Source of the DNA: a virus
IMG/VR virus record: IMGVR_UViG_3300008117_000488
Coordinates: 1 to 25,709 of that record
Length of the DNA stretch: 25,709 bases
Direction: 5' to 3' (one strand)
The notes beneath the pieces were generated by a model. It was not told the DNA's origin and did not search any database. It saw only the letters and a list, made by a program, of their open reading frames with translations. Below are positions 14,403 to 25,621 of the stretch, piece after piece. Positions within the stretch are counted from its first letter, which is position 1. The number at the start of each line of letters is the position of its first letter. The position numbers and the translations under genes are program-made.

Positions 14403-15275
14403 TCAGCCTCCCTGGTACTTCAGGTAGCCGTGAAGATCGCGCACGGTGCCGGCGGCCTGTGCCGCCTTCGCCTCGAACCAGTCGGGAAGCGGCCGACCGG
14501 CGGGAACGGCGTCGGCGAGTTCCCTGGCCTGGTCGGCGATCTGGCGGAGGTACTGCGCGGTCATGTAGTAGCCATCGGACCCGGCCACCGCGTCGCCCTC
14601 GGAGGCCTTCCTGCCACCCCCCAGGGAATCCGCCAGGTGGGAGAGACCCACAACCTCGGTCCCCAGCGATGCGACCGCCCGTCCGACATCGCGCACGAAC
14701 GACGGGCCGCTGATGGACCGGGCCTTGTCGTCCTTACCCTTGTTGTCGGACCACAACTCCCGGGCCTTGTCCACTGCCTTCGACAGGGTTGCCTTGTCCT
14801 TGTCCGAGATCAACCCCTGCTCCGCGGCGCGGCCGACGATCGCATCCACCTCGGCGGCGTGCTCGATCGCCCGCTCCAGGACCTCCTGTGCCTTGCGATG
14901 CGCGTCGGTGGACTTCTTCGGGTCGCCCTTGTACGACAGGGCCTTTTCGGCTTGCTTCTCCAGACGTTCCAGGGCGGACTCCGCCGGGGCGAAGAACTTG
15001 GTGGCGGACTGGATGGACTTGGCGTCCTTCGGGCTGTGGGCCGGGGTTTTCTTCTTCGACCCAGAGTCAGAGTCCGAAGCACCCCCGTGGACCCGCTTCT
15101 CCCAGTCCTCCTTGGGCAGGGGCTTCTCACCCTCCTTCTTCTTCCGATCGACATATTCCTGGTACGACGCGGCGATCCGGGTCGAATCCACGGCGAGGAT
15201 CGGCAGCAAGTGTGGGCGCAGGTCGGGGCGACTGTGCGCCAGGCGGATGATGCGGGTGCGAAGTGCGCTGGACAT
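14403..15275 (-). CDS. Tagged protein (N-terminal IRLA tag), helical, unknown function
   Basis: 290 residues; ATG 15275 with GAGG 9-10 bases upstream. Residues 5-27 are the shared tag (RTRIIRLAHSRPDLRPHLL). Directly after comes YQEYVDRKKKEG.KPLPKEDWEKRV (about 38-65), a polar helix plus tryptophan motif. The rest is mostly long charged helices (about 95-190) and a more compact C-terminal helical part (YYMTAQYLRQIADQARELADAV). No catalytic motif was seen. It starts a four-gene-like set with the two membrane proteins downstream. A TTATACC box at 15307-15301 on this strand could be its -10. Confidence 0.72.
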   Translation of the reverse strand: MSSALRTRIIRLAHSRPDLRPHLLPILAVDSTRIAASYQEYVDRKKKEGEKPLPKEDWEKRVHGGASDSDSGSKKKTPAHSPKDAKSIQSATKFFAPAESALERLEKQAEKALSYKGDPKKSTDAHRKAQEVLERAIEHAAEVDAIVGRAAEQGLISDKDKATLSKAVDKARELWSDNKGKDDKARSISGPSFVRDVGRAVASLGTEVVGLSHLADSLGGGRKASEGDAVAGSDGYYMTAQYLRQIADQARELADAVPAGRPLPDWFEAKAAQAAGTVRDLHGYLKYQGG

Positions 15276-15296
15276 GTGGGGGAACCTCACCCCGTC

Positions 15297-15308
15297 GGGG
15301 GTATAACC
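15297..15308. promoter_or_regulatory. TATA-like box between divergent genes
   Basis: GGGTATAACC read on plus, GGTTATACCC on minus, in the 66 bases between the tagged gene at 15275 (minus) and the nuclease gene at 15342 (plus). It is nearly symmetrical and could act as a -10 in either direction. No firm -35 seen on either side. Confidence 0.35.
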
Positions 15309-15341
15309 GTCGCACCGACGGACGATGGGTAGGGGTAGGGC

Positions 15342-15656
15342 ATGGCTGGCAAGCACCTGTACGTCATCCAGTCGAAGGTCACCGGTGCCGTGAAGATCGG
15401 CAGGTCGGACGACCCGGAACGTCGGCTGCGGCAACTCCAGACCGGGTGCCCGTACGTGCTGCGCATCATCCTCGTGATGGCGGACGGGGGTGAGCGCGAG
15501 ACGACGGTCCACCAGATCATGCGCCGACACCGGACGCGCCACACCGTCGGCGGGGAGTGGTTCGCCGAGTCCGGGATCGGCGAGATCCCCGTCGACGTGT
15601 GGGAGAACGCCGCACCCTGGTACATGGAGGACCCGGACTGGTGGAAGCGGAAGTAG
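15342..15656 (+). CDS. T5orf172-type GIY-YIG-related protein
   Basis: 104 residues, a single small domain. HLYVIQSKVTGAVKIGRSDD gives the strand-turn-strand of the GIY-YIG fold, with R17-type arginines after KIG (PERRLRQLQTG). GEWF near residue 70 is the usual end motif of the T5orf172/MUG113 group. Family members are widespread in phages; a nuclease activity is assumed for some but rarely shown. It occupies a gap in the minus-strand virion genes and stops six bases before the opposing gene's stop. Ribosome site is a plain AGGGG about seven bases upstream. Confidence 0.82.
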   Translation: MAGKHLYVIQSKVTGAVKIGRSDDPERRLRQLQTGCPYVLRIILVMADGGERETTVHQIMRRHRTRHTVGGEWFAESGIGEIPVDVWENAAPWYMEDPDWWKRK

Positions 15657-15662
15657 CCGAGG

Positions 15663-16814
15663 TCAGACGAGCGCGGCCAGCAGGTGCGGCCGCAGGTCCG
15701 GGCGACTGTGGGCAAGGCGGATGACCCGACGGCGGAGGGCCGCGTCCTTGTCGGACTTGCCCCCCTTGTCGGACTTGCCATCCTTGCCGGCCTTGGCACC
15801 CTTCTCCTGGAGCTTGTCGATGGCGGGGATGTCGGCGTCGTCGTACCGGTCGTCGTCCTCGCCCTCGAGCATGGCCTTCACGGCGGCGTCGTCCATGCCG
15901 TCCTCGAGCGCCTTGGACACGGCGACGACGACGGCGCTGAACATGTCGGTGTAGCCGGCATCGTCGTCCTTCCCACCGTCCTTCTCTGCGGCGAAGCGGG
16001 ACATGACCTCCCACGCGGCCTTTCCGACGTGGGATGCCCCGTGGGCGGCGTGCGATGCCTCCAGCCCCCACTCGTAGTGGACGAAGAACGAGTCCGCCAG
16101 ATGGCTGATCGCCTTGATGCCGACGTGGGTCGCAAACGACTTGCCGAGCGCACCCGCCGCCATCAGCGCCCCGCCGCCGGCCGCCGTGACGGCCGCACCC
16201 GCCGCGTACGCCCCCAGCGCGTACATGGCCTTCTTCTGCTTCTTGTCGAGGGGCTTGCTGCCGGGCGTCAGCACCTGCTTCAGGGCCTTCGCACCGTGCA
16301 TCACCTCGTGGACCTCGGACTTGGCCGCGTGCGCGATGCGTGCGCCGATCGCCTTCGCCCCGTCCTTGATGGACTTCCCGAGGTCCCGCATCTTCTCCCG
16401 GCGGTACTTCCGGTTCGAGAAGAACGTCTTGGTCGCCGTGCCCGACGACTTCAGCCCGCCCACGATGTCCTGGCGGTTCGCCTTCGGCTTGACGGACGAC
16501 ACGATGTCGTTGTACGCCTTCTTGGACTCGGACCAGGCATCCTTGAAGTCGTCGAACAGGATGGCGCGGACGTTCTCGCGCAGCCGCGACCCCAGGGACG
16601 ACTCCCCGTCGGACTTGCCCTTGCCGCCGTCGTCCTTCTTGACGGTGTGCTTCGACTTGTCCGCGCCGGGGTGGTCCTTCAGGTACTTCTCGAGGGCCTC
16701 CTGCGAGTCGAACTCCATCGCGACGCGGTCCGTCACGAGCAGTTCGACGAGGTAGGGTCGCACCGCCGGGTTCGTGTACGCGAGGCGGATGGTGCGGGAG
16801 CGCAGATCGGACAT
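15663..16814 (-). CDS. Doubly tagged protein (tag at both ends) with Gly/Ala hydrophobic segment
   Basis: 383 residues; ATG 16814 with GAGG six bases upstream. The tag is at residues 4-26 (RSRTIRLAYTNPAVRPYL) and again as the last 24 residues (RRRVIRLAHSRPDLRPHLL). The C-terminal copy is closer to the tag of the 15275 gene than to its own N-terminal copy. Between them: a basic helical region (about 90-165), a strongly hydrophobic Gly/Ala stretch (about 188-220, LGAYAAGAAVTAAGGGALM) that could cross a membrane or pack as a helical hairpin, a helical part, and a Lys/Asp/Gly-rich linker before the last tag. Unknown function; possibly injected or virion-internal, as inference. Confidence 0.75.
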   Translation of the reverse strand: MSDLRSRTIRLAYTNPAVRPYLVELLVTDRVAMEFDSQEALEKYLKDHPGADKSKHTVKKDDGGKGKSDGESSLGSRLRENVRAILFDDFKDAWSESKKAYNDIVSSVKPKANRQDIVGGLKSSGTATKTFFSNRKYRREKMRDLGKSIKDGAKAIGARIAHAAKSEVHEVMHGAKALKQVLTPGSKPLDKKQKKAMYALGAYAAGAAVTAAGGGALMAAGALGKSFATHVGIKAISHLADSFFVHYEWGLEASHAAHGASHVGKAAWEVMSRFAAEKDGGKDDDAGYTDMFSAVVVAVSKALEDGMDDAAVKAMLEGEDDDRYDDADIPAIDKLQEKGAKAGKDGKSDKGGKSDKDAALRRRVIRLAHSRPDLRPHLLAALV

Positions 16815-16854
16815 GGGTGACCTCGACCCCGCAACCCCTAACGGACGAATACCG

Positions 16855-17190
16855 ATGCGGGACGGTGACGGCGGGCCTATACGGGGGACGAGCAACCCCA
16901 TCGTCGTCCCCGACGCGAACATCGAGGTGTTCGCGTTCGACAGTTCCAGCGCCAAGGTGACCCTGGTCGCCGTCGGTGCCCCGATGACCCCCGTCGTGGG
17001 GGATGTGGGCCGGTACGTGTACGCGTTCAACATCCAGGACCCGTGGACCTACCAGCCCACCCTGTACGGGGTGATGCGCGGCACCGACCCGACGACCGGC
17101 CTGGACGTCGTGGTCGAGATGGAGGTCAACGTCACGATCCCGTCGGGCGGGGGGCGGGGTCTCATCGCCCAGTTCGTGCGCGGCGGGTAG
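16855..17190 (+). CDS. Small beta-rich protein, unknown; start uncertain
   Basis: About 111 residues from ATG 16855; no clear ribosome site, and the frame is open further upstream, so the start may differ. From IVVPDANIEVFAFDSSSAKVTLV onward it reads as a run of beta strands like an immunoglobulin-type or carbohydrate-type sandwich (YVYAFNIQDPW, LYGVMRGTD, DVVVEMEVNVTIP). It ends GLIAQFVRGG. It is followed at 22 bases by the zinc-ribbon gene. A CCTATACGG box at 16876-16884 lies just inside it and may be a divergent control site for the gene at 16814. Confidence 0.6.
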   Translation: MRDGDGGPIRGTSNPIVVPDANIEVFAFDSSSAKVTLVAVGAPMTPVVGDVGRYVYAFNIQDPWTYQPTLYGVMRGTDPTTGLDVVVEMEVNVTIPSGGGRGLIAQFVRGG

Positions 17191-17212
17191 CGTCCCGCCA
17201 GCGAGGTGACCC

Positions 17213-17401
17213 GTGCCCATCTACGAATTCAGGTGCCCGTCCTGCGGCAGGCAGTTCGAGGAACTCCGCAAGGTCGACGACCGGGACCGCCCGGCGCGGT
17301 GCCCGTCCGAGTCGTGCGCCCGCGAGGCCGTGCGGCTGGTGTCCCGCACGTCGTTCGACCTGAAGGGCGGGGGATGGGCCAAGGACGGCTACTCCGGGTG
17401 A
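17213..17401 (+). CDS. Small FmdB-type zinc-ribbon protein
   Basis: 62 residues from GTG 17213 with GAGGTG about five bases upstream. Starts MPIYEFRCPSCG, the FmdB signature. Ligands are C8, C11, C30 and C35; the second pair is spaced Cx4C rather than the common CxxC. It ends with a Lys-Gly-Gly-Gly-Trp...Tyr motif (LKGGGWAKDGY), also usual in this family. Function of the family is poorly defined; a regulatory or nucleic-acid-binding role is assumed. The minus-strand gene at 6560 carries a related ribbon, so the genome keeps at least two. Confidence 0.82.
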   Translation: MPIYEFRCPSCGRQFEELRKVDDRDRPARCPSESCAREAVRLVSRTSFDLKGGGWAKDGYSG

Positions 17402-17466
17402 TCGTTCGATAGGGCGCCCCGTGGGCGTCGGCCGCCACGGTCGGCACACCTCGGAGGAGACACACC

Positions 17467-17565
17467 ATGAAGTACATCCTGATCGCCGTCCTGTTCGCCT
17501 GCACCCTCACCGCCTGCCCCGGCAAGTCCGAGGACACCGGCGCGTCCGACACCGCCGCCGAGTGA
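17467..17565 (+). CDS. Tiny lipoprotein with lipobox
   Basis: 32 residues; ATG with GGAGGAG about nine bases upstream. MKYILIAVLFACTLTAC is a textbook lipoprotein signal: Lys, hydrophobic core, and LTAC lipobox with C17 as the lipid-carrying residue. Only 16 residues remain after cleavage, acidic and Ser/Thr/Asp-rich. It is too short for most known outer spanins but has their targeting. Other possibilities are a superinfection-exclusion lipoprotein or a moron-type envelope protein. A terminator follows directly. Confidence 0.78.
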   Translation: MKYILIAVLFACTLTACPGKSEDTGASDTAAE

Positions 17566-17578
17566 GGTGACGGTGTGG

Positions 17579-17621
17579 CGGGGGGTCGACCTTCCAGGGT
17601 TCGGCCCCCCGTCCTCTTTTT
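17579..17621 (+). terminator. Rho-independent terminator after the lipoprotein gene
   Basis: CGGGGGGTCG (17579-17588) pairs with CGGCCCCCCG (17602-17611) over ten pairs including one G-U, loop of 13 bases, then TCCTCTTTTT (17612-17621). It ends 14 bases after the lipoprotein stop begins to be left behind and two bases before promoter copy 3, so it insulates two transcription units. It is the clearest terminator in the window. Confidence 0.8.
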
Positions 17622-17622
17622 G

Positions 17623-17651
17623 GGTCCGACGCGGCGGTCGGCCGGTGTACC
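17623..17651 (+). promoter_or_regulatory. Conserved promoter-like element, copy 3
   Basis: GGTCCGA (17623-17629) and GTGTACC-type box (GTGTACC, 17645-17651), 15 bases apart. It sits directly after the terminator and 47 bases before the ATG of the next gene, which is the arrangement expected of a true promoter. Confidence 0.68.
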
Positions 17652-17669
17652 TCGACCCTGGAGGTACCC

Positions 17670-17975
17670 ATGGCGACCGCGACGAACCCACACGCCCTCG
17701 AGAAGTTCGTGGGGATGACCCTCATGAACATCGCAGCGGCGGTCGACCAGATCCGCTCCGGGGCGCACCCGGAGTACGACGGCAACTGCCGTCGGGACAT
17801 CGGGGACAGCCTGGCCCTACTCGCGTCCACCCGCATGGAGCAACTGGGCCTGGACCCGGACTACCCCGTGGGGCTGCCCATCCAGGTCGCCGGCCTCCGG
17901 GAGGAGCACCTCCCCGCCGACATGCCACTGGGCACCTTGCGCCGCGTGCGGCGGTTCGTCGTCCTACCCCAGTAG
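17670..17975 (+). CDS. Small protein, unknown function
   Basis: 101 residues; ATG with GGAGG about six bases upstream. N-terminal half helical (LEKFVGMTLMNIAAAVDQIRSG and GDSLALLASTRMEQLG), with a Cys-Arg-Arg-Asp turn. C-terminal half has a strand-like end (LPIQVAGL, RRFVVLPQ). No family is recognised. A single-gene unit between terminator plus promoter and a convergent neighbour, whose 3' end it overlaps by 12 bases. Confidence 0.7.
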   Translation: MATATNPHALEKFVGMTLMNIAAAVDQIRSGAHPEYDGNCRRDIGDSLALLASTRMEQLGLDPDYPVGLPIQVAGLREEHLPADMPLGTLRRVRRFVVLPQ

Positions 17976-18785
17976 GGGAAGGACCGCCGACCGCACCTCG
18001 GGGTGCCGGTACGCGATGCGGATGAGGTGGGGGCGCAACGTCACGAACAGAGGGTCCGCATTGAACGACGGGACGTACGAGGCGACGCGGCGTCGCATGA
18101 ACGACGCGATGCGCCCTCCCGCACCCATCTCCGCACGGGTGACCTTGATCTGCTCGAGGTACCAGTCGATCTCGGTGTCGGGCATCACGACGGGTCCGTT
18201 GGCCCACAACTTCCAGTCCCGCATCACGACCTCGGCCGCACCCGTCACCGGGACGTCGCGGTTGATGCAGAAGAACAGCGAACGCCACTCGGGGAACGCC
18301 ATCGGGTTGTACGTGATGGCCGCACTGCCGGTGTCGGGGACCACGCCGAAGCTGCCGTCGGGGATCTCCGCCGCCGTCAGGTTGCCGACCGCACCCGCGT
18401 AGGGGGTCTTCGACCCGCCCAGCTTGGCGGTCGCGATGCTGCCCGAGATGCCGACGTAGAACTCGACGCGGGACAGTAGTAGGGCGCGGAGGTGGCCCAG
18501 GGTCTGGAACTCGAAGTCCGAACGACCGCCTGGCTTGCGCGGCTTCTTCACGTTGAAGAACGGGGGCTTGTTGCGGTTGAGGTGTACCCCCACGCGGGCA
18601 CCCTCGGGGACGAGCAGGAACCCGTCCTCGTTCTCCCGGCGCAGACGCTTCCGTTCCTCCTCGTCCCACACCAACTTCTCTGCGACGATGACTCGGGACA
18701 GTTCGGCCTTCCCTGCGGATCGGGGGAGGGCCTGTGCTACGCGGACGGCGTCGGAGAAGGTGGGCCCGTCGAACATGTGCCTCAT
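17964..18785 (-). CDS. Protein with C-terminal IRLA tag, unknown function
   Basis: 273 residues; ATG 18785 overlaps the previous TGA (ATGA), and ATG 18776 is an alternative start. The body is mixed alpha/beta with a basic early helix (VWDEEERKRLRREN), a KKPRKPGGRSDFEFQTLGHL segment, strands around 120-190, and SLFFCINRDVPVTGA. The last 25 residues are the shared tag in C-terminal position (RPHLIRIAYRHPEVRSAVL, ending PLLG). No catalytic motif was recognised. Translation is coupled to the ParB-fold-like gene upstream, itself eight bases after the endolysin, so the three form one operon. Confidence 0.72.
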   Translation of the reverse strand: MRHMFDGPTFSDAVRVAQALPRSAGKAELSRVIVAEKLVWDEEERKRLRRENEDGFLLVPEGARVGVHLNRNKPPFFNVKKPRKPGGRSDFEFQTLGHLRALLLSRVEFYVGISGSIATAKLGGSKTPYAGAVGNLTAAEIPDGSFGVVPDTGSAAITYNPMAFPEWRSLFFCINRDVPVTGAAEVVMRDWKLWANGPVVMPDTEIDWYLEQIKVTRAEMGAGGRIASFMRRRVASYVPSFNADPLFVTLRPHLIRIAYRHPEVRSAVLPLLG

Positions 18786-19438
18786 TCCACGATGAAGGTG
18801 ACGACCAGGCGTCCCTGCGGGTCGCGGTACGGGTTGTTCTTGCGGCGGGCCTGGCTGCCGTGCACGCCCGCACGGCGGGCCTCGATCAGCGCCCGTGTGT
18901 GCGCCCCACGGGACAGCAGCGACTCGGGCGTGCCGGACAGGACCACCTCGGCCCCCACGACCTCACGGGGGTCGTGGGGGCGACCCCGCGACAGGTTCCG
19001 CATCATCGGCCCCGTGCTGAACCCGGCACGCTGCACGTCCACCCGGACGAGGTCGATGTCGTCGTCCGCGGACGCCGTGTGCGCCGTGCCGACGTCCTCG
19101 ACGATCTCGGCGCGGATGGACGGCCACCGGGACGCGACCGCGTTGGCGTACGTGCTGTTCCCGTCCAGGACCTCGAACCGACCCCCGCCCGTGGGGCGGA
19201 TGCTGATCGGCTCCCGCCGCGCGAATTCACCGTTGTACGACCGCCACATGAACACGCGGGCGTTGTGGATGCCCTTCTCCCGCGCACGGGTCGCGTCGAG
19301 CAGGCGGAGGGGCACGTCCTCCCCGCCGACGAAGTACCGGTCCGGGGCGAACGGGAGTTTCTCGGGCACGCCGGTGTCGTCGAGGAACTCGGAGACGGCC
19401 TCGAGGTGGCGGGATGCGACGCGGGACGCGATGGTCAT
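18782..19438 (-). CDS. ParB/sulfiredoxin-fold-like protein
   Basis: 218 residues from ATG 19438, seven bases after the endolysin stop. Residues 76-113 (EPISIRPTGGGRFEVLDGNSTYANAV..., then IRAEIVED) match the ParB-like pattern of strand, 'DGxxRxxAA' helix and 'IxAxVV' strand, with N-S-T-Y where many members have H-R. ParB-fold domains bind or cut DNA or hydrolyse CTP. The usual GxxRxxAA arginine is replaced by threonine or tyrosine here, so activity may differ. About 30-65 (RYFVGGEDVPLRLLDAT...ARVFMWRSYNG) and the basic C-terminus (RRAGVHGSQARRKNNPYRD) are not assigned. Confidence 0.62.
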   Translation of the reverse strand: MTIASRVASRHLEAVSEFLDDTGVPEKLPFAPDRYFVGGEDVPLRLLDATRAREKGIHNARVFMWRSYNGEFARREPISIRPTGGGRFEVLDGNSTYANAVASRWPSIRAEIVEDVGTAHTASADDDIDLVRVDVQRAGFSTGPMMRNLSRGRPHDPREVVGAEVVLSGTPESLLSRGAHTRALIEARRAGVHGSQARRKNNPYRDPQGRLVVTFIVE

Positions 19439-19445
19439 CAGGGGC

Positions 19446-20189
19446 TCACTTGGCGGGGAGGGCGAGGAGCTTCGCGTAGACGGACTCGTCCTTCGCGGAG
19501 ACGATCTTGATGGCACCGTCGATCTTCCCGATGTCGAACCCGGCACGCTGCAGCAGCGCCTGGACCGTGTGGGCGAACGTCTGGCAGTCCCCGCTGTGCC
19601 CGACGAGGATGGCCCCGCACTTGGCGGCCTCCTCGTACCCGAGGCGGCGGAGGACGCCGGCGATCTCCCCGTAGAAGTCGAAGTGCCACGCCTCCGACGC
19701 ACCCTCGGAGGCGGACTTGATCACGGGGCTCCACCCCAGGGGCTTCGCGATGTCCCACAGCCGGTCCAGTTGCCGGTCCGCCGGGACGCCGGGGAACCGA
19801 AGGACCCCGATGTGGACGTCGATGGCGCGGCCCGCGTTGTGGAACGACCGGCCCGGCATCGCGACGAACGCGGCCTTCATGGTCTTGGGGTTGAACGCCG
19901 GGGAGGACGCGGCGGGCTTGCCCGCGCGCACCCACGCGTCGTACCGATCCCGGGCCTGCTGCTGGACCTTCACGTCGCGGTGCAGTTCCGTCACGCGGAA
20001 GTCCCCGCCCGCCGCAGCGACGGCGTTCGACAGGGCGAGGAGGGCCTGCGCGACCTCGGGGACCGCGATGCCCGCCCGCCCCAGGTTGACCAGCGGGATC
20101 AGCCCGGAACGGGGTCCGCCCGTCTTGCCGGCACGGTCGGACGACGAGGCGATGGACGGATCGACGGGGACGAGCGGGACGACGGACAT
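19446..20189 (-). CDS. Endolysin: M15 (VanY-like) peptidase with peptidoglycan-binding domain
   Basis: 247 residues; ATG 20189 with GAGG seven bases upstream. The M15 zinc site is complete: SFHNAGRAIDV gives H117 and D124, and EAWHFD gives catalytic E166 and H169. VTELHRDVKVQQQARDRYDAW (67-86) is the usual upstream helix. The C-terminus (about 200-235, HTVQALLQRAGFDIGKIDG) is a PG_binding_1-type repeat. Such enzymes cut the L-Ala-D-Glu or D-Ala-D-Ala bond of the peptidoglycan stem peptide. There is no signal peptide, so release would need a holin. First gene of a three-gene operon; its upstream region shares the divergent gap with promoter copy 4. Confidence 0.88.
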   Translation of the reverse strand: MSVVPLVPVDPSIASSSDRAGKTGGPRSGLIPLVNLGRAGIAVPEVAQALLALSNAVAAAGGDFRVTELHRDVKVQQQARDRYDAWVRAGKPAASSPAFNPKTMKAAFVAMPGRSFHNAGRAIDVHIGVLRFPGVPADRQLDRLWDIAKPLGWSPVIKSASEGASEAWHFDFYGEIAGVLRRLGYEEAAKCGAILVGHSGDCQTFAHTVQALLQRAGFDIGKIDGAIKIVSAKDESVYAKLLALPAK

Positions 20190-20251
20190 GGACCCACCTC
20201 GGGATGGCGTGTACGCCCCCGCCGGGCACTATCAACCGTCCACCGATGGCA

Positions 20252-20281
20252 GGTCCGACCCGCCCCCCACCGGGGTATACC
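20252..20281 (+). promoter_or_regulatory. Conserved promoter-like element, copy 4
   Basis: GGTCCGA (20252-20258) and GGGTATACC (20273-20281). The second box is shifted by two bases towards a TATACC form, giving a -10 close to the standard bacterial one. The gene at 20307 follows with GGAGG at 20296-20300. On the other side lies the endolysin start (20189). Confidence 0.65.
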
Positions 20282-20306
20282 GATCCACCCACGAAGGAGG
20301 TCACCG

Positions 20307-20483
20307 ATGAAGGCCGTCAACCGCTCCCGCCAGAAGGCGGCCCGCCTCGCCCAGGACGCCCGCGAGCACCGCTGGCAGGGCGGCGCGGGGCGGGATTCCG
20401 CCAAGCGCGCCAAGCGGGTCGCCCGTCGCGCCGCCCGCCGCGCAGAGAAGTCCGAAGCCGCCTGGGCCAAGGACCAGGCCTGA
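20307..20483 (+). CDS. Very basic small protein, probable nucleic-acid binder
   Basis: 58 residues, almost a quarter Arg or Lys plus many Ala (RSRQKAARLAQDAREH, then AKRAKRVARRAARRAEKSEAAWAK). The ATG has an AAGGAGG ribosome site six bases upstream. Reads as one long positively charged helix; such proteins usually bind DNA or RNA or coat the inside of a head. First gene of a run of small plus-strand genes under promoter copy 4. No family was assigned. Confidence 0.72.
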   Translation: MKAVNRSRQKAARLAQDAREHRWQGGAGRDSAKRAKRVARRAARRAEKSEAAWAKDQA

Positions 20484-20493
20484 GAGGAGACCG

Positions 20494-20775
20494 ATGTTCA
20501 CCATCACCGTCCCCGAACACGCCCCCCGCCACGGGGGCGAGACCCTGGCGGTCCGCACGGACCGCCCCGCGTGGATCGTGCGGGACCGCACGGAGGGGTG
20601 GCTGCGATGCTCGATCCCCGTCACGGGGGCCGACGGTCCGGGCCGCGTCCACGTCCCCCTCCGGGAGGGGATCGACGTCGCCGTCGCCGCCGGCATGGCC
20701 ATCGAGGTCATCCCCGAGTCCGACGACCGCACGGGACACCCCATCCCCGTGCGGCCCGCCACGGGTGCCCCGTGA
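20494..20775 (+). CDS. Small protein with beta-sandwich-like pattern, unknown
   Basis: 93 residues; ATG with AGAGGAG about six bases upstream, ten bases after the basic protein gene. Strand-rich: MFTITVPEHAPRHGGETLAV, WIVRDRTEGWLRCSIPV, RVHVPLREGIDVAVAAGMAIEVIPES. It looks like a small beta barrel. Function unknown. Its TGA overlaps a GTG (GTGA) that starts a very short reading frame. Confidence 0.7.
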   Translation: MFTITVPEHAPRHGGETLAVRTDRPAWIVRDRTEGWLRCSIPVTGADGPGRVHVPLREGIDVAVAAGMAIEVIPESDDRTGHPIPVRPATGAP

Positions 20776-20828
20776 ACCGCGGCGACGTCCTGCACCTGAT
20801 GTTCATGTCGGGTCCACCGTCGGGATGA
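20772..20828 (+). CDS. Possible 18-residue coupled peptide
   Basis: GTG 20772 overlaps the preceding stop (GTGA) and opens MNRGDVLHLMFMSGPPSG. It ends at a TGA that overlaps the next ATG (ATGA). No independent ribosome site. The double overlap is what makes it notable; it may be only a spacer that lets ribosomes re-initiate. Low confidence. Confidence 0.3.
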   Translation: MNRGDVLHLMFMSGPPSG

Positions 20829-20887
20829 ACGTCCCCGGACTGGCCCGACTCGTCACCGACTGGTGGGGCCGGACGGACCCCCGGTAG
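20825..20887 (+). CDS. Possible 20-residue coupled peptide
   Basis: ATG 20825 overlaps the preceding TGA (ATGA) and opens MNVPGLARLVTDWWGRTDPR, a short amphipathic, tryptophan-containing peptide. It ends 47 bases before promoter copy 5. Real expression cannot be judged from sequence. Low confidence. Confidence 0.3.
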   Translation: MNVPGLARLVTDWWGRTDPR

Positions 20888-20933
20888 GTCGATGGGCGTG
20901 GCTGTCCGGGGGGACGCAGCCCCCGCGTGTGTA

Positions 20934-20962
20934 GGTCCGACCCGCCCCACCACCGGTGTACC
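20934..20962 (+). promoter_or_regulatory. Conserved promoter-like element, copy 5
   Basis: GGTCCGA (20934-20940) and GTGTACC (20956-20962), 15 bases apart, 54 bases before ATG 20988. The 15 bases from GGTCCGA onward (through CCCGCCCC) are the same as in copies 1 and 4, so the spacer is partly conserved too. Confidence 0.65.
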
Positions 20963-20987
20963 CCCACCGAACCCACGGAGGGATGTG

Positions 20988-21290
20988 ATGCTCAAGATCG
21001 GTGACAGCATCCGCGTCCGCGGACCCGGGGACCGCCAGGGGTCCCCCATCCCGGCGGCCACCTGGGTCGTCGTGGCGCTCGACCGCATCGACGGGTCGAG
21101 CATGTACGCCTGCATCGCCCGGGGCTACCGCCCCGGCGCGGACCCCGTGTGGATCGCGGGGCAGGTGGACGCCGTCGGCCGCCCCGGGTACCCGCCGCCC
21201 CCCATGCGGGGGGACGAGGCCATGATGTGGCGACTCGAGGGGGTGGCCCGCGAGGACCACGCCGAACGGGTGGCCGGAGAAGTCAACTGA
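20988..21290 (+). CDS. Small protein with SH3-like beta pattern, unknown
   Basis: 100 residues; ATG 20988 with GGAGG about six bases upstream. MLKIGDSIRVRGPGDRQG, TWVVVALDRIDGSSMYAC, DPVWIAGQVDAV gives a strand order like a small SH3 or KOW-type barrel. C-terminal part is proline-rich then helical. No family was named. Its TGA overlaps an upstream in-frame ATG of the next gene (TGATG), so the two are likely co-translated. Confidence 0.7.
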   Translation: MLKIGDSIRVRGPGDRQGSPIPAATWVVVALDRIDGSSMYACIARGYRPGADPVWIAGQVDAVGRPGYPPPPMRGDEAMMWRLEGVAREDHAERVAGEVN

Positions 21291-21340
21291 TGGACCGACG
21301 CCCCACACCACACCACCACCCGAAGGAGAAGGAGACGACC

Positions 21341-21859
21341 ATGTACGACAAGGCCATGGCAGAGGACCAGATCGACATCGCCATCCACGCGTTCGCCCGA
21401 CGGAACGCACAGGCGACCCTGTCGGCGTTCGGACCCGACGAACTCGCCATCCTCAAGGACGACCGCGACCCGGACCCCGAGACCACCGTCATGCGCCGCG
21501 CGCTGAACCGCGCCGCCACCGCACGGCAGTCCCTGGCGCACCCGCCCGTCGAGCGGCTGCGCATCGGCCTGGAGACGTGGATCTCCGACATGGAGGCCGT
21601 CCTGGCAGACCCGCCGCCGCCCTTCCCCGACGAGACCCCCGACGAACGGCGGATGTCCCAGGAGGTCGACGCGATGGTCCTGGCACGCATCCGCGAGATC
21701 AAGGCCGTGCTCGACACCGGGGACGTCGACGCCGCGTTCGACGCGCTGCGGAAGGCGTCGCAGAACCGGGACACCGACCCCTACCCGATCGAACACTTCC
21801 TGCCGGACGTGTTCGACGTGAACAGCGCACACTGGCTGGACCTGGTCGAGGTCAACTGA
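21341..21859 (+). CDS. Helical acidic protein, unknown function
   Basis: 172 residues from ATG 21341, chosen for its strong AAGGAGAAGGAG ribosome site; ATG 21290, overlapping the previous stop, would add 17 residues. Mostly helical (AEDQIDIAIHAFARRN; TTVMRRALNRAATARQ; SQEVDAMVLARIREIK; DVDAAFDALRKAS), with a Pro-rich link near 88-100 (DPPPPFPDETPDE). It ends SAHWLDLVEVN. Unknown function. Last gene of the 20307-21859 island. The first 31-bp direct repeat begins seven bases after its stop. Confidence 0.7.
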   Translation: MYDKAMAEDQIDIAIHAFARRNAQATLSAFGPDELAILKDDRDPDPETTVMRRALNRAATARQSLAHPPVERLRIGLETWISDMEAVLADPPPPFPDETPDERRMSQEVDAMVLARIREIKAVLDTGDVDAAFDALRKASQNRDTDPYPIEHFLPDVFDVNSAHWLDLVEVN

Positions 21860-21865
21860 CCAGGC

Positions 21866-21896
21866 CCGGGTCAGAGCGGACCGTCCTCGGAAGGGT
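21866..21896. repeat. 31-bp direct repeat, left copy
   Basis: Identical over 31 bases to 22840-22870, same orientation. The right copy contains the last codons and stop of the 22845-23510 gene; this left copy has the same bases with no reading frame attached. Between them lies one tagged gene of lower G+C. Confidence 0.9.
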
Positions 21897-21924
21897 ACTC
21901 AGGAATTCAGTTAGAAACCGCCCC

Positions 21925-22734
21925 TTAGTCCCGGAACCCGCGATCCGCATTAGGGACGTATTCGAATTCGAGAAAATCACTGAGGCCCTGCACGACGTCA
22001 CCCACGACCTCGAACTGCGCCCAGACCTCGAACTGCTTGGAATCGTAGTCCAGAACTTGCAGTTCAAACTTAGCGAACCGCATCCCACCTGCTTCCCCCA
22101 GCACAACCTCGAAGGGTTCCGAGGGTCCCTCGACATTATATGCGTCTAACTCATAGGACTTGTTTACCCTTTCCTCCAACTCCAAGAACCCCCTCCCGTC
22201 GATAGGGGGTGACTCCTCGATACCGGCAATCAGATCGTAGAGGTCGATCCTCTGAGAAACCTCTCTCGAAAGACCCTCGATCAGTTTCAGAATCGGACCG
22301 GAGTCGAAGTCGTCCGCCTCCGAATCGTAGGGGGGAAGAAGATCAGAGGGGATCGAGAAGGTGACCTCACCGCTGTAGCTGTGCGGTAAGTCCACCCTAT
22401 ACTCGATGTCTTCGTAGTCGTAGGAATCGCTGTCCTTGACCCTCTGCTTGTAGCGTTCGGTCTCGAAATCTCCGAACTTCGTCTTCACCTCAGAGACCTT
22501 CAGGCCTTTCGAGGTGCGCATCAGAGTCTGAGCGATGGCGTCCGCAAGCCTCCCCCTTGAGAACTGGGCAACCCTGCCAGAGGAAGAAGCCTTAGACCGG
22601 TTGACCGGGTCGGGGGTGAAGGAGGTCTGAGCCAACCCAGCCAGGATAGCCTTCCGCTGGGGCGAACCAACAGGAAGGGTGGAAGCCAGCCGGATCAACC
22701 GGGAACGATCGGATGAGGTCAGAGTACGAGGCAT
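21925..22734 (-). CDS. Tagged protein of lower G+C between direct repeats, unknown function
   Basis: 269 residues; ATG 22734 with GGGAG nine bases upstream. The tag is at residues 7-34 (DRSRLIRLASTLPVGSPQRK, then AILAGL). A basic Ser-rich segment follows, then a helix (RGRLADAIAQTLMRTSKG). The rest is acidic mixed alpha/beta (SYDYEDIEYRVDLPHSYSG; GPILKLIEGLSREVSQRIDL; WAQFEVVGDVVQGLSDFLEF). Codons are plainly less G+C-rich than in all neighbours (many third-position A and T, AGA and TCA codons), which suggests recent transfer. The tag-coding DNA still matches the neighbour at 23510 closely. A CTATAAC box at 22803-22797 may be its -10. Confidence 0.75.
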   Translation of the reverse strand: MPRTLTSSDRSRLIRLASTLPVGSPQRKAILAGLAQTSFTPDPVNRSKASSSGRVAQFSRGRLADAIAQTLMRTSKGLKVSEVKTKFGDFETERYKQRVKDSDSYDYEDIEYRVDLPHSYSGEVTFSIPSDLLPPYDSEADDFDSGPILKLIEGLSREVSQRIDLYDLIAGIEESPPIDGRGFLELEERVNKSYELDAYNVEGPSEPFEVVLGEAGGMRFAKFELQVLDYDSKQFEVWAQFEVVGDVVQGLSDFLEFEYVPNADRGFRD

Positions 22735-22839
22735 ACCGTAACACTCCCACAGAGGGTCGGTCCGCTTAGGGGCTGAACCGTATTGGAGGTCCAAAGTTAT
22801 AGCGGATCCACCGAACCGGATACGACACTGGTCGTACAG

Positions 22840-22870
22840 CCGGGTCAGAGCGGACCGTCCTCGGAAGGGT
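22840..22870. repeat. 31-bp direct repeat, right copy
   Basis: Same 31 bases as 21866-21896. It covers the stop and last eight or so codons (ending EDGPL) of the 22845-23510 gene, so insertion of the neighbouring gene left that gene's reading frame whole. Confidence 0.9.
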
Positions 22871-23510
22871 CGTAGGGCCGCAGGGGGACCTGGATGTAGG
22901 CAGTGCCCTGCTTCACCCGGACGACGGGGTCGCTGGCGATGTCCACGGAGAAGTCGCTACCCTGCAGGGCCTCACCGATCTGGTCGACGACGGTGGGGTA
23001 GTCGTACGTGGCCTTGACCTCGAGGTCGCGCGAGGTCCCGGTCCACCCCTCGATCACGATCGTGACCGCACGATCCGTCACGCGGACGTCGGGCGGGATC
23101 GACATGCGGAGAACCCGCCGGGTGAAGTCCGCCACCACGCGGACGACCTGGTCCTGAAACTCCCGTGGGACGCCCGAGGCGGTGCGACCCAACGCGTCCC
23201 GCTCAGCGGACTCCTCGCGGATCTTCTTCTCCCACGCGTCGACCGCCGTGTTGAGGAAGAAGATCATGTTGCCCAGGTTCTGCGGGAGGCTCCGGAACCG
23301 CAGCCCCGTCTCACGCTCCGCCGCGAAGATGGGCCACTTCCAGAACCCGTCCGCACCATCCACACGGTTGTAGTCCTCCGACCGGGGAGGGAACCGTGCC
23401 TCCTTCCCGAGTCCCGCCAGGATCGCCTTCCGCTGGGGCGAACCGACGGGGAGGGTCGAGGCCAGCCGGATCAGGGCGGAACGGTCGGCGGCGGTCAGGC
23501 GACGGGACAT
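22845..23510 (-). CDS. Tagged protein, unknown function
   Basis: 221 residues from ATG 23510. An in-frame ATG 15 bases upstream has no ribosome site, while GGAG inside that stretch is well placed for 23510. Tag at residues 9-34 (DRSALIRLASTLPVGSPQRK, then AILAGL). Then an aromatic segment (DGFWKWPIFAAERETGLRF), a helical part (NMIFFLNTAVDAWEKKIREE; EFQDQVVRVVADFTRRVLRM) and strands (VRVTDRAVTIVIEGW, LEVKATYDYP, AYIQVPLRPYD). The order strand, helix, strand in the second half recurs loosely in the sister genes. Unknown function. Confidence 0.73.
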   Translation of the reverse strand: MSRRLTAADRSALIRLASTLPVGSPQRKAILAGLGKEARFPPRSEDYNRVDGADGFWKWPIFAAERETGLRFRSLPQNLGNMIFFLNTAVDAWEKKIREESAERDALGRTASGVPREFQDQVVRVVADFTRRVLRMSIPPDVRVTDRAVTIVIEGWTGTSRDLEVKATYDYPTVVDQIGEALQGSDFSVDIASDPVVRVKQGTAYIQVPLRPYDPSEDGPL

Positions 23511-23549
23511 CGGGGATGACTCCATGAGTGGGGCGGGGTGGACGTACCT

Positions 23550-24272
23550 TCAGTAGCCGTAGTCGGGCTCGGGGATGAACCGCTCGGGATCATCCACCTC
23601 GATGTCGTAGGTGCAGTCGAACGACGCATTGAACTTGAACCCCAGGACGACCAGGCCCCCGCCCACCAGCATCCGGCCCACGGGCTCGGGCTTGGACATG
23701 CGGCCGTTCACCAGACCCACATCCATGAACGACACCCCGGGGTTCTTATCGTTGAGCATCTCCGCGAGACCATCGGTGCCGTGCATCGCCGTCAAGAGGA
23801 AGCCGTCGGGCCTCATCCGGTTGACGACGCGGTTCATGACGTCGACCATGAACTCCTCACGCTGCGCCTGGGAGACCTGCGCCAACATGCGCGCGGGGAG
23901 GATGAGGTGCGTGAAGAACGTGACATCGGAGGGGACTTCGAGGTCGATGGTCACGGACGCGGTGTCGATGTCGGGGGGGTGGTCCCACGTCCCGGCACGG
24001 CTCTCGTAACCGTACTCGAAATCCCGCTCATCCGAGATGTAGGACACCTTGGTGCGGTCGAAGTCCGTCTCGATGGACCCCGCCGGATCGCGCAGCACGT
24101 ACTGCGCGGCCGCAGCGGCGAGGTCGAGGTCGATCAGGCCTGCGACGTGGCGGTGGGCCACCCTGACGGCGATGTTGCGGTAGTCGGGCACGGATCCTCC
24201 GAGCGATTCGACTGGGAGGGTGGAAGCAAGCCGGATCAGACGGGAACGGTCGGAGGCCGGGCGACGGGACAT
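23550..24272 (-). CDS. Protein with a shortened tag, unknown function
   Basis: 240 residues from ATG 24272. The tag starts normally (SRRPASDRSRLIRLASTLPV, residues 2-21) but then leaves the pattern; the R-x2-ILAGL end is missing. No ribosome site precedes the ATG: the leader piece that carries GGAG in the sister genes is absent here. The body is mixed alpha/beta (VTIDLEVPSDVTFFTHLILPA; REEFMVDVMNRVVNRMRPDG; VGRMLVGGGLVVLGFKFNAS), ending in an acidic C-terminus. It may be translated by read-through coupling or from a leaderless transcript. No known domain. Confidence 0.68.
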   Translation of the reverse strand: MSRRPASDRSRLIRLASTLPVESLGGSVPDYRNIAVRVAHRHVAGLIDLDLAAAAAQYVLRDPAGSIETDFDRTKVSYISDERDFEYGYESRAGTWDHPPDIDTASVTIDLEVPSDVTFFTHLILPARMLAQVSQAQREEFMVDVMNRVVNRMRPDGFLLTAMHGTDGLAEMLNDKNPGVSFMDVGLVNGRMSKPEPVGRMLVGGGLVVLGFKFNASFDCTYDIEVDDPERFIPEPDYGY

Positions 24273-24339
24273 CGGGGATGCGGGGGCGATAGGCCGACTA
24301 CCGCATCCAGGGCCGGGTCGGGCGGGGGCGACGGATCGG

Positions 24340-24804
24340 CTACCCGATGTCCGAGTGGGGCGTGATGTCCGTGGACTGGCGGTAGTAGGCGAAACGGTTG
24401 TCGTTGGAGAGCGCCATCTGGAACTTGCATCCGAAGAACCTCTCCAGGTGGCCCTTGACCTTCGCCATGTCCTCGACCCGGATGCCCGCATCCGGGTTGA
24501 TGTAACTCCGGACCTCGATGCCACCCCGCCTTTTCACACTGAGGGTCAGGTTCATCGCGACGGTCTTCACGAGGTGCGCGTACGGGGCGTCGGTCGGATC
24601 CGACACGTCCCCGAAACCGTCCTCGATGGACAGGAGGTGCTGGATGGCGGGCCGGATGAAGGGGGAGGCGCCGGCGACCTTGGACGATCCGGAAGCACCC
24701 CCGAGTCCCGCCAGGATCGCCCTCCGCTCGGAGGACCCGACGGGGAGGGTGGAGGCGAGGCGGATGAGGGCCGAACGGTCGGAGGCGGTCAGGCGACGGG
24801 ACAT
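24340..24804 (-). CDS. Tagged protein, unknown function
   Basis: 154 residues from ATG 24804 (the ATG 15 bases upstream lacks a ribosome site; GGAG lies nine or so bases before 24804). Tag at 9-34 (DRSALIRLASTLPVGSSERR, then AILAGL). Then a Gly/Ser link, a helix (FIRPAIQHLLSIEDG), strands (VAMNLTLSVKRRGGIEVRSY), a helix (VEDMAKVKGHLERFFG) and an acidic, aromatic end. The body looks like a small alpha/beta domain; no family was recognised. Confidence 0.73.
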   Translation of the reverse strand: MSRRLTASDRSALIRLASTLPVGSSERRAILAGLGGASGSSKVAGASPFIRPAIQHLLSIEDGFGDVSDPTDAPYAHLVKTVAMNLTLSVKRRGGIEVRSYINPDAGIRVEDMAKVKGHLERFFGCKFQMALSNDNRFAYYRQSTDITPHSDIG

Positions 24805-24872
24805 CGGGGAGGACTCCATGTGCAGGGTTCACGGGGACGGGGGCGATAGGACGCCTACCGACCCATCAGGAC
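24710..24872. repeat. Leader-plus-tag DNA module, copy A
   Basis: About 160 bases covering the tag codons of the 24804 gene, its ribosome site and its leader up to the previous gene's stop. The segment matches 25527-25694 at nearly every position, with a few substitutions and small gaps. Both contain GGCG-TYCTATCG-CCCCC on the minus strand (box at 24849-24844), a likely promoter or processing site. A shorter, rearranged version of the leader, CCTATCG at 24293-24287, precedes the 24272 gene. Confidence 0.75.
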
Positions 24873-25621
24873 CTTGGCCTGGCCGGGACGCCGGGGGCCT
24901 TCCACCGGCCTTCGAGGATCTCACCCTCGGATCCGTCCCACACCCCCCCGAGGATCACGGCCGTTCCGCCGATGCGGGCGTTGCCGGACACCTGGGCACT
25001 GCCTATCACCTTGGCATCGCCGTACACCTCGGCCCCGGCGTACACCTCGGCATCGCCGCCCACCTTGGCTTTGCCGTACACCTTGGCGGAGCCGTACACC
25101 TTGGCGTTGCCGGACACCTTGGCTCTGCCGAACACCTGGGCTTCGCCGGACACCTTGGCGTCGCCTTCCACCTCGGCGTTGCCGTACACCTTGGCATCGC
25201 CGTACACCTGGGCCTGGTAGTGTACCCTGGCGTTGCCGTACAACTTGGCCTGGTCGTACACCTTGGCATCGCCGTACACCTGGGCGACGCCGGACAACTC
25301 GGCGTTGCCGAGCACCTGGGCGTTGTCGGACATCACGGCGTCGCCGTACAACTTGGCCCGGTCGTACACCTTGGCATCGCCGAACACCTTGGCGTCGCCG
25401 TACACCTCGGCCTGATCCAGGATGTGCTTCCCGGGGACGTTGTACTTAGGTTTAGGGTGGTTCTCCCAAGGTGATCCAAACGGATCAGGTCTCTCCAACC
25501 CATAGGGTTCGTCAGGGAACCACGCCGCCAGGATCGCCCTCCGTTCGGAGGACCCGACGGGCAGCGTCGAGGCAAGACGGATCAGACGGGAACGGTCGGC
25601 GGCGGTCAGGCGACGGGACAT
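24866..25621 (-). CDS. Tagged left-handed beta-helix (hexapeptide-repeat) protein
   Basis: 251 residues from ATG 25621 (upstream in-frame ATGs at 25636 and 25651 lack ribosome sites). Tag at 9-32 (DRSRLIRLASTLPVGSSERR, then AILAAW). About 35 residues of Pro-rich link follow. Residues 71-226 form about 26 hexapeptide repeats of the type AKVYGD or AKVYGN, with V, Y or L at the inward position. This is the pattern of a left-handed beta helix, as in YdcK-like and hexapeptide acyltransferase proteins, but with no acyltransferase catalytic histidine insert. Such helices are often trimeric and form rigid rods. A virion fibre or spike is possible; being tagged, it may be anchored through the tag. Function is inference. 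Confidence 0.82.
   Translation of the reverse strand: MSRRLTAADRSRLIRLASTLPVGSSERRAILAAWFPDEPYGLERPDPFGSPWENHPKPKYNVPGKHILDQAEVYGDAKVFGDAKVYDRAKLYGDAVMSDNAQVLGNAELSGVAQVYGDAKVYDQAKLYGNARVHYQAQVYGDAKVYGNAEVEGDAKVSGEAQVFGRAKVSGNAKVYGSAKVYGKAKVGGDAEVYAGAEVYGDAKVIGSAQVSGNARIGGTAVILGGVWDGSEGEILEGRWKAPGVPARPRS
24944..25411 (-). repeat. 18-bp tandem coding repeats of the beta-helix gene
   Basis: About 26 units of 18 bases, each encoding one hexapeptide, with strong conservation of the centre (TTGCCGTACACC or TCGCCGTACACC on the plus strand). High identity between units at DNA level points to recent growth by slippage or unequal exchange, and the repeat number may vary between related phages. Confidence 0.9.

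Follow-up and report, generated by a model that had tools for sequence, protein, structure and literature searches.

In phage T4 the capsid targeting sequence (CTS) is a terminal peptide carried by the internal proteins and by Alt; it directs prohead loading and is removed by the head maturation protease (PMC5694885). Propeptides of giant-phage head proteins are also thought to target the prohead, and gp53 and gp54 of SPN3US have an identical N-terminus (PMC5694885). Polyvalent proteins contain effector domains believed to be carried into the host alongside the DNA, with delivery coupled to an N-terminal header domain; for ADP-ribosyltransferase (ART) domains of the ART-PolyVal type, packaging and injection are predicted, as for T4 Alt (PMC5512222). 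The element considered here is a peptide tag of ~25 residues (22−34) found terminally on many rapidly evolving huge-phage proteins that are otherwise unrelated; it was noticed in a 25,709-nucleotide stretch of viral DNA, IMG/VR record IMGVR_UViG_3300008117_000488 (the whole stretch is referred to as the window), where it occurs in two subtypes, A and B. Judged from sequence, the tag is considered to be a cargo-loading signal of the virion head (probability roughly 0.57), the cargo of which would be enclosed, clipped, and injected with the DNA.

The tag resembles the T4 CTS in being a short terminal peptide on several otherwise different proteins of one phage; prohead loading and removal by the maturation protease are likewise proposed for it. 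It differs from the CTS in being longer, in its predicted helical hairpin and its candidate cleavage motif, and in its placement at the N- or C-terminus, at both, or between domains; a comparison with 50,697 phage records gives no sequence match between the tag and CTS-bearing proteins. As this test of homology is negative, the tag is thought to work like the T4 CTS, not to be a member of it. The inner-head propeptides of phiKZ and SPN3US offer a further parallel in the N-terminal targeting of giant-phage head proteins; however, these are mostly longer than 100 residues and are present on few paralogs, whereas the tag is short, is found on many unrelated bodies, and belongs to phages with a capsid protein of the Tunturi_5/phage G type. 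Similar to polyvalent proteins, the tagged bodies include conflict-type effector domains, among them a polyvalent-type ADP-ribosyltransferase, but polyvalent proteins combine 2−15 disparate domains in one long chain while tagged proteins are mostly small and separate with a single body.

Tag copies and the proteins that carry them

The first-pass annotation had described nine copies of the tag on eight otherwise unrelated proteins of the window. A six-frame scan finds the core motif at all of these positions, on the minus strand, and profiles built from wider tag sets give the same total, with seven N-terminal and two C-terminal copies; they also separate the two subtypes proposed at first, as four copies of A and five of B, the latter all N-terminal. 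A search of 3.3 Mb in all six frames recovers the window copies with E values of 2e-7 to 8e-16, and a truncated copy with 3e-6. With the tags masked, no pair among the eight bodies matches at E<1e-3, in agreement with the original impression that the bodies share little; a confident family assignment is obtained only for the β-solenoid at 24866−25621 (YdcK solenoid).

The consensus of subtype A is LRSKLIRLAHxNPELRPHLLPLLKEA and that of subtype B is M..LTASDRSALIRLASTLPVGSPERKAILAGL; core positions of the tag hold 3−4.8 bits, falling to ~0.2−0.6 bits a few residues past it. Pairwise ratios of nonsynonymous to synonymous divergence (pN/pS) between tags are 0.33−0.55 with pS near saturation, therefore selection acts on the tag peptide. 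AlphaFold modeling of the window solenoid with five relatives predicts helices at residues 7−19 and 25−32 joined by a loop (predicted local distance difference test, pLDDT, of about 57−66), a disordered stretch at residues 36−64, and then a confident solenoid with pLDDT up to 93. The tag is predicted, at moderate confidence, to be a helical hairpin on a flexible leash; the element had been anticipated as a terminal helix, of which the terminal position stands while the single helix is replaced by two short ones. A three-tag protein was modeled with a mean pLDDT of 46 and used for secondary structure only.

Profile-guided scans with both subtypes identify 33 loci in 28 IMG/VR contigs of 5−297 kb. 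Most of these contigs, together with LR745208.1 (a 485-kb uncultured phage, unannotated), form a set of 165 tags in 146 open reading frames (ORFs) of 27 records (10−485 kb), with up to 23 tags per record; the genes are crudely called and the contigs are mostly fragments. The tag is N-terminal by a strict start criterion in 117 of the 165 and within ten residues of the C-terminus in 17; some of the remaining 31 are probably N-terminal with a non-ATG or misassigned start. Thirteen ORFs contain two tags and three contain three, with tags at both ends or between domains; long multi-tag chains are few, and most tagged proteins are 100−400 aa with one body. With tags masked, the bodies of the 146 proteins form 110 clusters, 96 of them singletons, which defeats the alternative that tagged proteins are full-length paralogs; the profile matches are mostly terminal, so they are not mostly internal positions of one homologous family.

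In a tblastn search of 50,697 phage records, T4-like phages among them, subtype A was found only in LR745208.1, and the matches of subtype B were all weak (E of 1 or more); no cultured phage in the collections searched carries the tag. Subtype A has no confirmed relative in 84,980 bacterial and archaeal genomes, and literature searches for the tag sequence returned nothing relevant. Homologs of the window solenoid are present in 55 annotated phage records; in 13 of the 15 listed the match starts no earlier than query residue 38, and in 12 of these it lies behind residue 61. Because the listed matches mostly begin past the tag, the solenoid body is considered to exist without the tag elsewhere.

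Tag identity within genomes is slightly higher than between genomes for subtype A, not for B. Recent copy-paste was considered as a general cause of the tags and rejected, as tags diverge about as much within a genome as between genomes; it did occur in the window, where a leader is duplicated along with the tag. Three to four B-tagged window genes have common DNA upstream of the start codon; part of the B-tag cluster is a duplicated 5′ cassette made up of leader, start codon, and tag, and tag and translation start appear, from the sequence, to have spread as a 5′ cassette inside the window phage. The leader DNA duplicated together with the tag lies at 25490−25709, 24670−24900, and 24180−24380 of the window.

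The carrier lineage and its two subtypes

The tag-bearing phages (carriers) share many core genes, including the large terminase, portal, and baseplate wedge, and by sequence they make up a single lineage of huge myoviruses that has Tunturi_5 and Bacillus phage G as relatives. Their major capsid protein (MCP) matches phrog_2522 (E 2e-47) and their head maturation protease phrog_18299 (E down to 9e-13); the long acidic protein between protease and MCP is termed the scaffold by position and composition, not by a family match. The MCPs of the members aligned are 83−93% identical to that of LR745208.1, and MCP relatives are found in at least 469 IMG/VR stretches, in contigs of up to 618,736 bases and with the best 80 at 87−94% identity; the lineage is widespread and largely uncultured. 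By MCP, Tunturiibacter phage Tunturi_5 (48% identity) and Bacillus phage G (37%) are the nearest annotated phages, with mycobacteriophages such as Myrna more distant. Tunturi_5 is the closest cultured relative; its head maturation protease is 41% identical over 245 aa and it has the same [KR]xA[AS]-rich head proteins, but its whole 309-kb genome contains no A or B tag. The window itself is without head genes and shares other core genes with the carriers; it is assigned to the lineage because its genes at 3−4931, 6114−6680, 7385−8605, 8892−9905, and 11104−13266 have homologs in carrier contigs, most at 40−68% identity. In one phage the head maturation protease (G020:101640−104432; G numbers denote individual records) is interrupted immediately behind its LSMGC motif by several hundred residues that resemble an intein.

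A genome almost always has just one of the two subtypes; both are present in the window, G003, G010, G028, G029, and a small contig, L318. In L318 (7.3 kb) the B- and A-tagged genes are at 3633 and 5633, 2 kb apart and near the MCP gene. A single well-supported branch sets the B phages apart in the trees of protease, portal, MCP, scaffold, helicase, and clamp loader; in that of the terminase one A phage (G009) falls among them. Homologous bodies have been found with A in an A phage and B in a B phage, namely G010_64925 and G023_48675 (33% identity over 261 aa) and G001_43633 and G015_266923 (46% over 244 aa), therefore the tag tracks the phage and not the body. The window protein starting at 16814, which is A-tagged at both ends, and G023_204593, which is B-tagged at both, have a short segment in common behind the N-terminal tag. 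Such a distribution would be expected of a label that a lineage-specific partner recognizes; it does not name that partner, since replication genes give the same split.

Flanking motif, cargo, and alternative explanations

Of 126 N-terminal tags, 62 have a [KR]xA[ASGN] motif in the 12 residues that follow, where residue shuffles, the source of all expected numbers here, give 6.9 (at most 19 in 2000 shuffles); 18 of 33 other tags have it in the preceding 14 residues (4.0 expected), compared to 9 of 332 control body positions (10.5 expected). The strict form, [KR]xA[AS], follows 38% of A tags (23 of 60) and 20% of B tags (13 of 66); at the same residue offset it is found in 27 of 1400 untagged conserved genes (1.9%). 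The density of the motif per 1000 residues is 17.8 in the scaffold, to which the Lys-Ala-Ser-rich composition of that protein contributes, 13.6 in family 55 of the head module, and 2.0 elsewhere; within the MCP it is 16.7 for residues 1−60 and 0.9 for the rest. Five of the six motif-densest families, out of 104 conserved, are encoded at 398−418 kb of LR745208.1 in the head and terminase region, where one tagged gene (398174−398575) is situated between scaffold and MCP. The protease N-termini have a similar conserved R-x-A-S-like site, and in Tunturi_5 the motif is carried by the scaffold-like gp332, the protease, the MCP N-terminus, and the annotated DNA ejection protein gp328. It is probable that [KR]xA[AS] is the cleavage consensus of the head maturation protease; removal of the tag fits, because the motif is on the body side at either end, following N-terminal tags and preceding C-terminal ones.

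Pfam matches are few among 127 tagged proteins; those to tagged bodies include ART-PolyVal (3.9e-12), pentapeptide repeats (1.1e-22), DUF2958, WGR, and DUF7007, with RelA_SpoT, DUF5710, and DUF3990 below the Pfam cut-off. An equal number of length-matched untagged genes from the same contigs (127) match 73 families; the 25 listed are mostly sigma factors, helix-turn-helix proteins, zinc ribbons, nucleases, and metabolic enzymes, and with 25 of 73 control families listed the contrast in cargo is a qualitative one. None of the conserved core families carries the tag in three or more genomes. One region of a doubly A-tagged protein, G003:21743−23962, weakly resembles RelA/SpoT (E 6e-4, short of the Pfam cut-off).

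In the proposed mechanism the helical hairpin, at the N- or C-terminus (sometimes both, or between domains), would dock to a component of the assembling head core, and diverse effector-type proteins would be enclosed before DNA packaging; the head maturation protease probably cuts a [KR]xA[AS]-type site beside the tag, and the freed cargo would exit with the DNA into the host. The first-pass annotation had suggested an address label on diverse cargo, with several possible roles. The label is upheld in that the tag is portable, terminal, and found on mostly unrelated bodies, while support for its role is indirect and no partner protein was found; head packaging is the best supported of the roles offered, given the motif beside the tags, the effector-like cargo, the lack of tags on core genes, and the single virion lineage. 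A more specific proposal, held tentatively at a little short of even chances, is that a whole huge-phage clade (contigs of up to ~0.5 Mb) has a general, modular delivery address in which the hairpin, terminal or between domains, is read by a lineage-specific prohead-core receptor; there would be at least two codes (A and B) and ten to twenty or more fast-evolving effectors per virion, with the tag cut off by the maturation protease.

Several observations weigh against head loading. About half of the tags are without the candidate cleavage motif, most tagged genes are located outside the head gene cluster, and most tagged bodies have no known domain. Tags were found in 13 of 20 MCP-bearing contigs examined (73−619 kb) and seven had no recognized tag; the subtype agrees with replication genes as well as with head genes, and the trees do not single out the head. 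No receptor was found; two proteases have a C-terminal helix with a weak likeness to the tag (5 bits), which is considered probably convergent because no degenerate tags were found in conserved core families in three or more genomes.

The alternative that survives best, though unlikely, is that the tag docks proteins to an assembly or compartment in the infected cell other than the head, such as a replication compartment, a membrane site, or a host protein, and that these proteins are never packaged. Many huge phages build intracellular structures, and the scatter of tagged genes over the genome and the lack of a receptor would both fit such docking; however, the tag-flanking motif is concentrated in head proteins and rare elsewhere, and the cargo resembles proteins predicted to be injected. 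Two further alternatives are considered improbable, and equally so. A homotypic oligomerization hairpin would join the tagged proteins in one mixed assembly with no separate receptor, which agrees with the hydrophobic pattern of the hairpin, the several copies in some proteins, and the lineage-specific subtypes (these also fit self-recognition), but it leaves the flanking [KR]xA[AS] motif unexplained and most proteins have a single tag copy. Loading onto the tail, baseplate, or virion surface instead of the head would be in line with the weak tail-type matches (β-solenoid) or collagen repeats (G011) of some bodies and with the conserved genes of probable tail type adjoining the window cluster; against it, the motif is concentrated in the scaffold, the MCP N-terminus, and other head-module genes. 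Least credible is that the tag spreads as the 5′ part of a gene, made up of leader, ribosome site, and first codons, and aids expression or rides on recombination with no targeting at the protein level, as the upstream DNA common to three to four B-tagged window genes might suggest, since C-terminal and internal tags exist, selection acts on the protein, and the divergence among tags is about the same within and between genomes.

Features of the window and significance

Table 1. Tags and tagged proteins of the window.
Feature	Positions	Strand	Remarks
Tag, subtype A, N-terminal, gene 14403−15275	15192..15263	−	Profile E 8.5e-14; sequence LRTRIIRLAHSRPDLRPHLLPIL
Tagged protein, 290 aa	14403..15275	−	Body without Pfam match
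Tag, subtype A, N-terminal, gene 15663−16814	16731..16805	−	Profile E 2.9e-14
Tag, subtype A, C-terminal, gene 15663−16814	15666..15737	−	Profile E 1.3e-11
Doubly tagged protein, 383 aa	15663..16814	−	Homologs in G002 (A-tagged) and G023 (B at both ends)
Tag, subtype A, C-terminal, gene 17964−18785	17967..18038	−	Profile E 9.2e-13
Tagged protein, 273 aa	17964..18785	−	Body homolog G024_18714 B-tagged N-terminally
Tag, subtype B, N-terminal, gene 21925−22734	22624..22731	−	Profile E 1.1e-22
Tagged protein, 269 aa	21925..22734	−	
Tag, subtype B, N-terminal, gene 22845−23510	23403..23507	−	Profile E 5.9e-22
Tagged protein, 221 aa	22845..23510	−	
Tag, subtype B, N-terminal, gene 23550−24272	24210..24260	−	Truncated after PVES; profile E 8.5e-9
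Tagged protein, 240 aa	23550..24272	−	
Tag, subtype B, N-terminal, gene 24340−24804	24700..24801	−	Profile E 6.6e-22
Tagged protein, 154 aa	24340..24804	−	
Tag, subtype B, N-terminal, gene 24866−25621	25523..25618	−	Profile E 1.3e-19
Tagged YdcK-like β-solenoid, 251 aa	24866..25621	−	

Two ORFs on the plus strand of the window, 5074−6096 and 15342−15656, were judged GIY-YIG-like from their sequence; the second is placed between the tagged genes starting at 15275 and 16814, on the opposite strand to them. A second portable motif, CEKLPxGxMRDNCEKK, mostly preceded by K-x-A-G, has ten occurrences, eight of them in tagged proteins; it is carried by G005, G010, G015, G016, G018, G023, and G024 at a varying distance from the tag. 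A post-tag segment, EALKKYLKEHPDADxSKHxVKK, is common to the window protein 15663−16814, two proteins of G002 (6790 and 7735), and one of G023 (204593); the remaining bodies of these proteins differ (pentapeptide repeats, ParB-like, and others). The sharing of this segment suggests that these proteins are a mosaic assembly from several small modules.

If head loading is correct, one short profile would pick out from sequence the candidate injected proteome of widespread, uncultured huge phages, most of which consists of proteins of unknown function, and what giant phages inject would become directly testable. The tag would also offer a candidate means of loading cargo into large phage capsids, and T4-style protein packaging would have been invented again in a different form.

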